A stretch of DNA of 27,201 bases from a virus. Within the stretch, counting starts at the first letter, position 1; each line of letters starts with the position of its first letter. The translations under genes and the position numbers were made by a program. The notes under the pieces are model-generated. The model did no database searches. It was not told the DNA's origin and saw only the letters and a program-made list of their open reading frames with translations. The stretch lies in the IMG/VR virus record IMGVR_UViG_3300030107_003522, positions 422 through 27,622 of that record. One strand, 5' to 3'. Shown here in pieces: positions 5,346 through 22,596 of the stretch.

Positions 5346-5914
5346 GTACATTAGAAGTCAATACAATAAACGAATATTCTGCTGCTAATGGTGTAACCAT
5401 TGATGGATTAAAAATTAAAGATGTATCTTCTGGTTCTACTATGAGTAAGCCAGTACTACAAATAGTCAATCAATTTTATGTTACTCAAACAAGTTTAACA
5501 GGGGATACATTTGGAGATACAGGACTTACTGCTGATATAACTCCGACTTCTACTTCATCAGATATTTTATGTATGTTCTATCCCACTTTTAGTGGAGAAG
5601 ATAATTCTTATGTAGCTTTCAAAATGTTCAGGGATTCAACAGAGATAGGTTCTTCAACAGTAACAGGAACAGGTGTTGAATGTTTTACTGGTTTTCCTTT
5701 TGATGATGATGCTAATACTTCTCATAGTGTAATTACTCTCCCATTGGTATATTTAGATAGTCCTAGTACAACAAGTGCAACAACATATAAAATTCAATTT
5801 TCTCCTATGAGGAGTTCAAGTAAAACTTGTTACCTAAATAGAGCTTACAACTTAAATGATGATAATAAAATTAGAGGTTCATCAAATGTTATATTAATGG
5901 AGATAGCAGGATAA
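5342..5914 (+). CDS. Short fibre / virion adhesin, copy 1
   Basis: This 190-residue protein shares its N-terminus with the gene at 7169: both contain GVTIDGLKIKDVS, then MSKP.LQIV, and both end in a similar IxLxEIAG. They are paralogues with conserved ends and different middles. The GVTIDGLKIKD motif is common in structural and fibre proteins of marine phages. The middle is beta-rich with Thr/Ser clusters. The gene starts in the stop of the long fibre (ATGA) and its own stop overlaps the following chaperone-like gene (TAATG). It is probably a tail-associated adhesin that varies host recognition. Confidence 0.6.
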   Translation: MSTLEVNTINEYSAANGVTIDGLKIKDVSSGSTMSKPVLQIVNQFYVTQTSLTGDTFGDTGLTADITPTSTSSDILCMFYPTFSGEDNSYVAFKMFRDSTEIGSSTVTGTGVECFTGFPFDDDANTSHSVITLPLVYLDSPSTTSATTYKIQFSPMRSSSKTCYLNRAYNLNDDNKIRGSSNVILMEIAG

Positions 5915-18109: not shown

Positions 18110-18238
18110 TAGATAGCTTGTAACACACACAACATATACATTGTAAGGCGTTTCCAACATCCTACCTTACACTTACGCTATTCTAGGATGCTACTGTTGT
18201 CATCATTGGCGACTTGTGTCTGTGCTACAAGCTATCTA
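18110..18238 (-). ncRNA. Structured RNA unit R1, with pseudoknot
   Basis: The unit is closed by an 18-base stem: TAGATAGCTTGTAACACA (18110-18127) against TGTGCTACAAGCTATCTA (18221-18238). Read leftward all positions pair, with one G-U. Read rightward that pair is an A-C mismatch, favouring the leftward strand. Inside, 18184-18190 pairs with 18158-18164 (CATCCTA/TAGGATG) and 18165-18171 pairs with 18142-18148 (TGTAAGG/CCTTACA). These two 7-bp stems interlock as an H-type pseudoknot with no base between them. It lies between its own promoter (18280-18308) and microgene 1, so it may act as a leader element or be cut out. Confidence 0.7.
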
Positions 18239-18279
18239 CATATTCCTTTCTTTCTTTTGTTAATCTCATATTACATACA

Positions 18280-18308
18280 AGAATAACATTGTTAATATAA
18301 TTTGTCAA
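18280..18308 (-). promoter_or_regulatory. Leftward sigma70-type promoter before R1
   Basis: Leftward TTGACA (18303-18308), a 17-base spacer and TATTCT (18280-18285). The predicted start is near 18273, about 35 bases before R1. With the terminator just upstream it makes R1 plus the microgene chain an independent transcription unit. Confidence 0.75.
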
Positions 18309-18378
18309 TAACCTCATCTAATTATTATCTAAACAAAACTTTAGATTTCTTTGTGAAAAATTTCACAAGCTAGGGCAT

Positions 18379-18410
18379 AAAAAAAACGCCCCCAAATTAA
18401 TGGGGGCGTT
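18379..18410 (-). terminator. Strong leftward intrinsic terminator
   Basis: Leftward, AACGCCCCC, an 8-base loop (ATTAATTT) and GGGGGCGTT form a 9-bp GC-rich stem followed by eight T. Rightward there is no T-run. It ends transcripts coming from units R2-R6 and the genes upstream of them. Confidence 0.9.
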
Positions 18411-18452
18411 CTTCGTACTAGAAAGGGGGTCTTTCTAATATATTAATCTTTA

Positions 18453-18547
18453 TAGATAGCTTGTAAGATACAACAGTGATAGCAGACTCTCGTTTATCTA
18501 TCTTTCTCGTGTACACATAGCTCCTGCTATATCCTACAAGCTACCTA
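18453..18547 (-). ncRNA. Structured RNA unit R2
   Basis: Closed by 18 base pairs between 18453-18470 (TAGATAGCTTGTAAGATA) and 18530-18547 (TATCCTACAAGCTACCTA). Read leftward two positions are G-U; rightward both are A-C mismatches. The four innermost pairs (GATA/TATC) replace CACA/TGTG of R1, a compensated change. The stem can continue as TAGCAG/CTGCTA after a bulge. A small 7-bp hairpin (TAGAAAG/CTTTCTA) lies between R2 and the terminator. Confidence 0.7.
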
Positions 18548-18599
18548 CTTTCAGTCGCTAGGTGAAACAGGGCATTGTTTTTTAACTAGCTCTTACTTA

Positions 18600-18719
18600 T
18601 AGATAGCTTGTAACACACAAGGAAAATTGATATTGGTACAAAGGAGCCAGTCTATGATTAACTGGTTACATATCCTCACAATTTTTACCTCTCAAACCTT
18701 ATGTGCTACAAGCTACCTA
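18600..18719 (-). ncRNA. Structured RNA unit R3
   Basis: The longest closing stem, 23 positions, between 18600-18622 and 18697-18719. It adds AAGG/CCTT pairs to the common core and contains only G-U irregularities when read leftward. The interior has AAAATT...AATTTT with GATAT/ATATC, and an apical CCAGT/ACTGG hairpin. The bases just right of the unit (CTACCTACTTTCAGT) are identical to those right of R2, supporting duplication. Confidence 0.7.
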
Positions 18720-18724
18720 CTTTC

Positions 18725-18775
18725 AGTACGTTCAACAATGTCGGTACTGTTAGTACGTTCAACAATGTCGGTACT
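18725..18775. repeat. Two identical 24-base hairpin repeats
   Basis: The same 24-base sequence occurs at 18725-18748 and 18752-18775, separated by GTT (period 27). Each starts AGTACG and ends GGTACT, so each can form a 5-bp AGTAC/GTACT stem, and the junction can form an alternative hairpin. They sit between R3 and R4. Perfect identity suggests a recent duplication or selection as a binding site. Confidence 0.85.
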
Positions 18776-18780
18776 TTTCA

Positions 18781-18860
18781 TAGATAGCTTGTAACACACA
18801 GTCTCAGTCTCTCTTAGTTAGCGTACGTACTTCTGCGTCCTATGTGCTACAAGCTATCTA
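18781..18860 (-). ncRNA. Structured RNA unit R4
   Basis: The shortest unit (80 bases). A 21-position stem joins 18781-18801 with 18840-18860, with two G-U pairs on the leftward strand. The loop contains AGTACGTACG (leftward), whose AGTACGT is complementary to ACGTACT in both 24-base repeats next door, so a loop-loop contact is possible. Confidence 0.7.
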
Positions 18861-18895
18861 CAATTTACATTATTTCTAATGCAGTACTTCAATTA

Positions 18896-18989
18896 TAGAT
18901 AGCTAGACCTTTTGATACCTGTCTAGGTATGACACACTTCTGTCAAGCAGACGATATGAGTTATAGACTTCGTCTAGTCTTGCTATCTA
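18896..18989 (-). ncRNA. Structured RNA unit R5, cloverleaf-like
   Basis: The closing stem is 8 bp (TAGATAGC/GCTATCTA), an A-A mismatch, then about 5 bp (AGACT/GGTCT). Read leftward the interior folds into three arms: AGACGA...TCGTCT with inner AGT/ACT, TGACA-GAAGTG-TGTCA, and ATACCT-AGAC-AGGTAT. Together they form a four-way junction. It directly abuts R6 with no spacer. It is not a tRNA: there is no T-loop or anticodon arm. Confidence 0.65.
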
Positions 18990-19135
18990 CAGATAGCTTG
19001 AAGATAACTAGCTTACTTACTCCACGCCTGCCTGTTTTGTGGCTTCAACTTGCAAGTATGATGTATCTCTACATCTTTTTAGGCGTTGTCCGTACTTAAA
19101 CTAAGACTATTCTGCCGTTATCTTCAAGCTACCTA
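18990..19135 (-). ncRNA. Structured RNA unit R6
   Basis: The longest unit (146 bases) and first in leftward order. The stem of 19 positions joins 18990-19008 and 19117-19135. After the common TAGCTTG core it switches to AAGATAAC/GTTATCTT, a multi-base compensated change compared with R1, R3 and R4. Inside are ACGCCT/AGGCGT, a GATGTA-GAGA-TACATC hairpin with a GNRA loop, a GCC/GGC hairpin and the palindrome ACTTGCAAGT. Confidence 0.7.
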
Positions 19136-19349: not shown

Positions 19350-19760
19350 TTACCTTTCGTTGCTCATTGTGTAAGTTGATTCATCATAATAGAAAAAATC
19401 GAAACCATTTACTTCTTTATAAAAGCAATAAGTCATATAAGCAATCTCTTCATAAGCATATTCTGGCTTATACCAGCTCTTCCTCTCTGGTGTAATTGCT
19501 AATACTCTTACATCTAGATAGCTTTTTTCTAATAGTGCTATTAAATTTTTATTGCTAATAATCTTTTCAAATTCATTAACAAAGTTTTTAACTTCCTTTA
19601 TTTTTGCACTATTAAAAAAGATATATTCGTAATCGTGATAGCCAATTTCTCCAACTATAACCGATTTATAAATATCGACCTTAAAAGATGCTTGATATTC
19701 TTTTTCAAGATATAACAATTCATCTTTTAATTTATCTATTTCTAAATATTCTCTATCCAT
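19350..19760 (-). CDS. Hypothetical 136-residue protein
   Basis: The protein starts with a charged helix (LDKLKDELLYLEKEYQAS region) followed by strands and acidic helices, and is rich in Tyr, Glu and Lys. It contains YHDYEYIFFNSAKIKEVKNF and WYKPEYAYEEIAYMTYCF and ends YTMSNER. There is no signal or membrane segment. The ATG is preceded by AAAAGGGG and junction element A. I do not recognise a family. Confidence 0.6.
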   Translation of the reverse strand: MDREYLEIDKLKDELLYLEKEYQASFKVDIYKSVIVGEIGYHDYEYIFFNSAKIKEVKNFVNEFEKIISNKNLIALLEKSYLDVRVLAITPERKSWYKPEYAYEEIAYMTYCFYKEVNGFDFFYYDESTYTMSNER

Positions 19761-20401: not shown

Positions 20402-20464
20402 CCCCTTTCTTTTTTGCTATAAATAGCATTGAGTACTCATTGTTCAAACAAGTACTCTATGTTA
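20402..20464 (-). promoter_or_regulatory. Junction element C: double hairpin plus ribosome-binding site
   Basis: Hairpin 1 (20424-20464) has GAGTACT/AGTACTC, then an A-A mismatch and a weaker lower stem, with a 13-base loop that can pair TTGT/ACAA. Hairpin 2 (20415-20428) is TGCTA-TTTA-TAGCA and overlaps the lower stem of hairpin 1. AAAGGGG follows. Confidence 0.6.
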
Positions 20465-20479
20465 TCTACTTACTTTAGA

Positions 20480-22504: not shown

Positions 22505-22576
22505 GGGGGTGTCCAAGTTAGAGTCTCTGCTGGGCAACCAATAGAGATAACGTGGGTGCAAATCCCACCACCTCCA
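22505..22576 (+). ncRNA. tRNA-like structure without D-arm
   Basis: GGGGGTG (22505-22511) pairs with CACCTCC (22569-22575) as a 7-bp acceptor-like stem, extendable by GT/AC to 9. A T-arm, GTGGG-TGCAAAT-CCCAC (22552-22568), follows in the correct place, then A and CTA instead of CCA. The 40 bases between do not form D- and anticodon arms. They make one long hairpin: GTTA, bulge GAG, TCTCT, internal loop, TGG with a GCAA loop. The T-loop has G where U55 is expected. It could be a decayed tRNA, a tmRNA-domain-like mimic or an attachment-site remnant. Confidence 0.5.
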
Positions 22577-22596
22577 CTATAAAAAATTTTTTTTGC

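Follow-up and report, generated by a model that had tools for sequence, protein, structure and literature searches.

MITEs, REPINs and Correia elements are short, have inverted ends and occur in many copies. Cuckoo RNAs of alphaproteobacteria are tandem small RNAs with C-rich loops, and to our knowledge they share no long closing stem. Adenovirus VA RNA, a decoy RNA of viral origin, is compact and has a terminal stem of about 20 bp. The second box of the integron attC site has the sequence RYYYAAC. The other box is GTTRRRY, and integron cassettes and attC sites have been reported from phages too, under the name CALINs (PMC9892861). In cluster K mycobacteriophages, extended start-associated sequences (ESAS) consist of 17-bp repeats with spacers of mostly 4-13 bp; the authors find little support for a hairpin and describe gene families that keep their ESAS (PMC3203893).

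The locus described here carries units of a kind that combines a conserved paired stem on the gene strand, many interior families, a cassette distribution and presence or absence at one site. It lies in a stretch of 27,201 nucleotides (the window) from the IMG/VR virus record IMGVR_UViG_3300030107_003522 (27,622 bases), whose genes include a terminase, an exonuclease and a Rad52-like annealing protein. Six units, R1 to R6 (Table 1), start at the 5' end with UAGRUAGC and finish at the 3' end with GCUAUCUA, the exception being R6, which ends in GCUAUCUG. A closing stem of about 20 bp or more encloses five of them; R5 differs and is a looser member, yet it is conserved in other phages. The interiors are mutually unrelated, but every one has relatives elsewhere: R1 is 92% identical to a unit in locus L159, where similarity stops at the unit ends, and comparable relatives are found for R2 (90%, L294), R3 (97.5%, L192) and R5 (96%, L318), while the R6 family has relatives in L192 and L269. 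A preliminary description of this DNA had reported six units with common ends, unlike interiors and compensated inner stems. This is confirmed: the ends and inner stems are as it described, and the irregular stem positions of R1-R4 and R6 do give G-U when the minus strand is read and A-C when the plus strand is.

Table 1. Units and neighbouring features of the window (positions count from its first base)
Feature	Positions	Strand	Length (nt)	Description
R1	18110-18238	minus	129	Closing stem; interior hairpin loop UAGG..GGAAACG
Promoter-like site	18308-18280	minus		TTGACA-17-TATTCT; upstream of R1
Terminator-like hairpin	18379-18410	minus		AACGCCCCC/GGGGGCGTT and T run; after R6-R2; read from sequence
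Small hairpin	18420-18436	minus		AGAAAG-ACCCC-CUUUCU; C-rich loop; just ahead of terminator-like hairpin
R2	18453-18547	minus	95	Inner arm GATA/TATC
Linker hairpin	18548-18599	minus		Directly 5' of R2; AGUARGAG - stem - ..GCCCUGUU.. - stem - ACUGAAAG
R3	18600-18719	minus	120	Interior family of 8 members
Two copies of AGTACCGACATTGTTGAACGTACT	18720-18780	minus		Between R4 and R3; read from sequence
R4	18781-18860	minus	80	Identical copy in L007; relatives in L228 and L088
R5	18896-18989	minus	94	Multi-branched core; closing helices of 8 bp and 5 bp separated by an A-A mismatch
R6	18990-19135	minus	146	Own inner arm AAGATAAC/GTTATCTT
Near-palindrome	20420-20468	minus	49	TAGATAAC..GCTATTTA; unit-like ends, short loop
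tmRNA-like element	22505-22579	plus	75	Resembles tRNA-like domain of tmRNA

Fold z-scores of R1 to R6 are -4.96, -5.64, -7.01, -5.47, -3.92 and -7.35 on the minus strand and -4.82, -2.56, -4.43, -3.43, -2.95 and -4.62 on the plus strand. The minus strand is thus the better one for every unit, with a narrow margin for R1. A stem scan of the window finds five matches on the minus strand, R5 being too loose, and two on the plus strand, which arise because the unit ends are nearly symmetric. Dinucleotide shuffles of the window, which serve as the control for these stems, give a mean of 0.04 matches and a maximum of 1 over 100 shuffles with both strands summed; the reversed hairpin control (43) is uninformative.

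Relatives were gathered by several scans. TerL and annealing-protein scans, from each of which 80 loci were kept, selected relatives independently of the repeats, and several loci obtained in this way, with no arm used, carry the same kind of unit. Two exact arm-pattern scans supplied most unit-bearing loci; counts derived from them refer to the matches listed, and this mode of fetching enriches the commonest arm in the sample. Some loci are one contig fetched twice (L007/L116, L065/L184, L036/L253 and L082/L102, for example), and distinct units are counted by sequence. A pairing scan that allows G-U finds at least 317 units, at least 261 of them distinct, in 172 of 331 sources, against 3 matches in the reversed sequences of the same sources. 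Another reversed-sequence comparison gives 274 units against 15. Reversal preserves inverted repeats, so both comparisons test the conserved ends and not the hairpins as such. A search for relatives via the neighbouring ORF at 19350-19760 returned none.

Across the sample, the closing stem is conserved and asymmetric, with 5' UAGGUAGC... facing 3' ...GCUAUCUA and G-U wobbles favoured. Its median length is 24 bp (10-90% range 21-27), and units are mostly 71-156 nt long. The base before the unit is G and the base after it is U in 88% of cases each, which adds a wobble to the stem. In a second, strand-symmetric test, candidates were selected by their ends only and inner pairing was ignored in the selection. 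The resulting 629 candidates form two peaks, the second at 9-12 of 12 inner Watson-Crick pairs; at least 8 of the 12 are paired in 259 of the 629 candidates, compared with 1 of 93 in the control, which again uses reversed sequences and so bears on the ends and not on hairpins as such. Among these 259, units with two or more G-U/A-C mismatches give one reading in 228 cases and a mixed reading in 16. The wobble strand also agrees between units of one locus, with 168 pairs in agreement and 7 that differ. In 52 units whose inner arm departs from the common one by at least four bases, the cells comprise 526 Watson-Crick, 80 G-U, 2 A-C and 16 other combinations, the strand for these units having been chosen by the wobbles themselves.

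The neighbouring gene lies on the strand that gives the G-U reading in 109 of 121 cases upstream and 111 of 118 downstream, counting those of 138 loci in which such a neighbour is present. Nothing requires a hairpin of DNA to match the direction of transcription, which makes selection on RNA the simpler interpretation. The proposal of a leftward phage RNA family under selection for RNA structure is strengthened accordingly by both results, since the G-U/A-C pattern holds in hundreds of units and the RNA strand is that of the neighbouring genes.

Interiors of 266 units, a set that leaves out the too loose R5, cluster into 135 interior groups, 54 of them families with at least two members and 81 singletons, under single linkage, which chains a few unlike units, for example in the fifth family. 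Three or more distinct members are present in 32 families, and in 12 of these one or more compensated pairs lie past the first 24 pairs. The other 20 have none, and many of these are over 85% invariant. With 20 of 32 families lacking compensation and 81 of 135 groups being singletons, interior structure is tested for a minority. Four family alignments picked for their variation were examined closely. In the 11-member family both bases have changed in 11 pairs, and 4 of these pairs lie inward of the closing stem; none of 500 shuffles reaches this, and slid partners give 0 or 1. The R5 family (5 distinct rows) has 4 compensated pairs, 3 of which lie beyond the closing stem in the second helix. 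Here 25 of 500 shuffles reach the pair number, and none of 500 reaches the changed cells or the covariation score. In the R6 family (4 rows), 11 of 49 predicted pairs are compensated, 9 of them enclosed by a closing stem of 19 bp. A hairpin with the loop motif UAGG..RGAAACG occurs in 7 of 192 units, R1 among them, and like hairpins are present in spacers. UAGG..GGAAACG hairpins are also found standing alone in unit flanks.

The fourth family is tRNA-like. Its members contain a 5-bp T-arm with a 7-nt loop, a D-like arm with a GGG or GCG loop, and a long arm where the anticodon arm would be. Over its 4 rows, 8 pairs are compensated, and 6 of the 8 lie inward of the closing stem. An elbow pair links the D-like loop, through its middle base, to the third base of the T-loop; among 9 distinct cores it is C-G in 6 and G-C in the other 3, with no mismatch. 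For this count, the T-loops fetched were limited to those with C or G at the position under test, the D-loop side was left free, and arm-fetched loci supplied 5 of the 9 cores. In tRNA, this elbow pair corresponds to the 19-56 pair (PMC4810234). Shorter relatives of the family have the T-arm in common with it. ARAGORN makes no tRNA or tmRNA call in 192 units. Viral contigs L357, L358 and L361, among others, contain tRNA-like sequences that end in GACCACACCA and whose T-arm fits the pattern of the tRNA-like units; this match was selected by the pattern and is no proof of common origin with the units.

A separate element of the window (Table 1, plus strand) has an acceptor stem GGGGGUG/CACCUCC with a G3-U70-type pair, a T-arm, a short variable hairpin and the end ACUA. 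It scores 33.1 bits against the Rfam tmRNA model (E 2.2e-11), under the cut-off of 47. Relatives occur in L007, L222, L309, L201, L192 and L312, the last ending in ACCA; the L222 relative (5415-5494) lies 15 nt after a unit and reaches 52.4 bits, above the cut-off. Over 7 rows the acceptor stem is invariant, and two T-stem pairs are compensated. A model of the element yields 15 matches in 182 sources, comprising the 7 used in building it, 2 identical and 6 weak ones. It is perhaps a truncated tmRNA decoy.

Units of one family are found in otherwise different surroundings. Same-family pairs number 337, of which 315 are flanked by 100 bases or more; a qualifying alignment was obtained for 248 of these, the remaining 67 of the 315 being uncounted. 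Of the 248 pairs, 173 lose their similarity within 12 nt of the unit on both sides and 50 on one side, and the other 25 stay similar past both ends; the arms are common to all units, so this count mainly shows shared interiors and unshared flanks. For 133 unit pairs that are at least 90% identical, 43 of the locus pairs share no protein within the DNA compared; in the other 90, the mean identity of the shared proteins has a median of 58.7%. A single site with like flanks is occupied by different units in four contigs, one contig having two, and is empty in 23 locus entries (at least two of them one contig), indicating that units are dispensable there. The unusual arms of R6 are kept in other phages, so whole units can move. 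The preliminary description had envisaged growth by local duplication with diversifying cores. This view is not supported, as each interior of R1 to R6 has a family in other phages and the arrays therefore look assembled by exchange; horizontal exchange would fit the unit arrays where local duplication does not.

The favoured reading, to which we assign a probability of roughly 55%, is that the units are exchangeable, trans-acting structured RNAs of phage early operons with a common stem of about 24 bp, some of them probably decoys of the tRNA machinery. Transcription of the array would be part of that of the early operon. Spanning two helical turns, the constant stem may isolate the fold of the unit from neighbouring mRNA, and it may protect the unit ends or else be cut by a double-strand RNase. 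The interior would then act in trans on host components. Members of the tRNA-like family may imitate tRNA through their D-loop/T-loop elbow and so titrate or block factors that handle or target tRNA. This family makes the imitation of host RNAs the most concrete proposal, and through it the decoy function named in the preliminary description gains some weight. Exchange could rely on recombination at short homologies, carried out by the annealing protein that the phage itself encodes, and would keep a varied set in circulation. PADLOC finds no match among 7 proteins.

The spacers of the array contain further elements. Hairpins of the GCCCUGUU type, with a variable stem between constant ends, stand 5' of some units in 43 distinct versions; a stem of 4-7 bp forms in 35 of the 43, against 16.3 (maximum 23) with shuffled partners. 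The window example, folded alone, is weak (z -1.06). The preliminary description had placed all units in a leftward transcript with a matching terminator. The minus strand stands, but the terminator-like hairpin falls between R2 and R1, so R2-R6 and R1 are probably on different transcripts. A scan of this stretch does not list this hairpin, and promoter-like sites in the stretch, at 5 against 6.3 in shuffles, are not above chance. A small hairpin with a C-rich loop lies just ahead of the terminator-like one (Table 1). In unit flanks of, for example, L223, L257 and L262, CCCCUUU-loop hairpins stand just ahead of units and are followed by UAGACCAAAAUG or a sequence close to it. The near-palindrome of the window recurs at L088 4040-4088.

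A cis-acting role in early operons is the first alternative, with the stems serving as RNase III sites, mRNA stabilisers or insulators and the interiors being minor or tuning the next gene. The units sit between small co-directional genes in the window and in ten further contigs, six of which have an ORF with the P-loop LYGxPGTGKT just downstream of the units (Pfam AAA in the one scanned), and a stem of about 24 bp, or two turns, fits an RNase III site by length alone. A Shine-Dalgarno sequence and ATG follow within 40 nt in 103 of 262 units, compared with 22 of 266 that are preceded by one, and R1 is directly followed by a Shine-Dalgarno-like stretch and ATG. Against this role, some interiors are conserved families with compensated helices, which a bare processing site would not need, and the R2-R6 stretch has no minus-strand ORF of 35 aa or more. 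The gene that follows same-family units is homologous in 58 of 308 pairs and not in the other 250, which argues against gene-specific switches. We regard a purely cis-acting role as unlikely.

Non-autonomous mobile DNA of the MITE or REPIN kind, in which the stem would be terminal inverted repeats served by a transposase in trans and the RNA structure a by-product, is considered quite improbable. The sharp ends in pairwise comparison, the spread across divergent phages, the occupied and empty site and the TA at both ends of 255 of 266 units are all expected of such elements. However, units share the strand of neighbouring genes, unlike random insertion, and the orientation test for MITE/IS630-mariner elements was negative on these counts (109/121 and 111/118; 168:7 within loci). 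The same ends also enclose 135 interior groups, the mismatches are G-U and not A-C, and the elbow covaries. At the single site with like flanks, the empty allele, CTTTTTATAAGCTATA, does not look like a clean TA or duplication, and no transposase is named among 25 distinct proteins scanned, a subset of the ORFs.

Base-pairing regulatory sRNAs (guides) directed at host or competitor mRNAs are very unlikely: some interiors and linkers have C-rich loops (CCCCUUU, GCCCUGUU) of a kind able to pair with Shine-Dalgarno sequences, but across the rest of the window R1-R6 are no more complementary than shuffles are, so that the processed guides suggested earlier gain no support there, and GCCCTGTT/AACAGGGC occurs just 3 times in 11 phage contigs, twice beside units, with no separate partner sites evident.

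Other identities were considered and dropped. Protein-coding units do not agree with the ORFs over them (18654-18794 and 18929-19099), which are on the other strand, or with interior indels that are not frame-bound. Plain terminators were likewise set aside. As for integron attC sites, the GTTRRRY box is present at the ends of 2 of 266 units and the RYYYAAC box at none of 266.

Database searches place the units outside annotated families. No unit in the window or in the scanned subset of unit-bearing loci exceeds the Rfam 15 gathering threshold; the sole gathering-level match is the L222 tmRNA at 5415-5494, which adjoins a unit and lies outside it. A mir-2319 match on an L190 unit is below threshold and on both strands, as for a generic hairpin. 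Among 50,697 INPHARED records there is no match for the array, matches to the L216 unit region are at chance level, and an array-free stretch of another unit-bearing phage has no match. One exact 18-base arm pattern gives a single hit in GTDB species genomes, a gene-like Caulobacterales stretch with no unit. No such array layout appears among the titles listed in searches of the published open-licence literature, preprints being outside the search, and the words tandem, array, decoy and tRNA-like are absent from the main text of a review of phage small RNAs (PMC12197685). The units represent a real, widespread and apparently undescribed class of modular structured phage RNAs. The phages that carry them are, we infer, marine; their TerL is 25-28% identical to that of known phages among the matches listed, and a 65-base match to Pelagibacter phage HTVC104P may hint at the host.

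A wider reading, offered tentatively and at clearly less than even odds, is that these phages draw on a common, rapidly circulating pool of structured RNAs directed against the host. Its RNAs would have one stem format, expressible from every early operon and open to exchange by every phage, and swappable domains that imitate host RNAs, tRNA among them. Such a pool would be to RNA what anti-defence islands are to genes. The layout would be new among functional RNAs, with a near-constant stem and, in this sample, 135 interior groups traded as units. It would be a rich source of covarying RNA folds, would allow RNA-based counter-defence to be put to the test and would give modular RNA scaffolds a precedent in nature. 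The cassettes are small and self-contained, so their function can be tested one by one.

Compared with MITEs, REPINs and Correia elements, the units differ in their orientation bias, G-U asymmetry and many different interiors. C-rich loops, common to cuckoo RNAs, are found here on some elements only. Adenovirus VA RNA has one core, unlike the many seen here, and no homology with the units is claimed. The likeness to tRNA and to the tRNA-like domain of tmRNA lies in the elbow of D- and T-loops in one unit family, an elbow of the anatomy described in PMC4810234. The tRNA-like units differ in having no anticodon arm and no CCA end and in being enclosed in a closing stem, and most unit families are not tRNA-like. 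ESAS (PMC3203893) resemble the units in their inverted repeats, variable spacer, several copies per genome, location in the non-structural half and closeness to gene starts. They were rejected as an identity, since units covary in their stems, are longer than the ESAS and change their next gene. Integron cassettes (PMC9892861) likewise form exchangeable arrays mostly in one orientation, and attC sites are imperfect hairpins with conserved ends and a variable interior. In the arrays described here, by contrast, the hairpin itself is the cassette, without an ORF.
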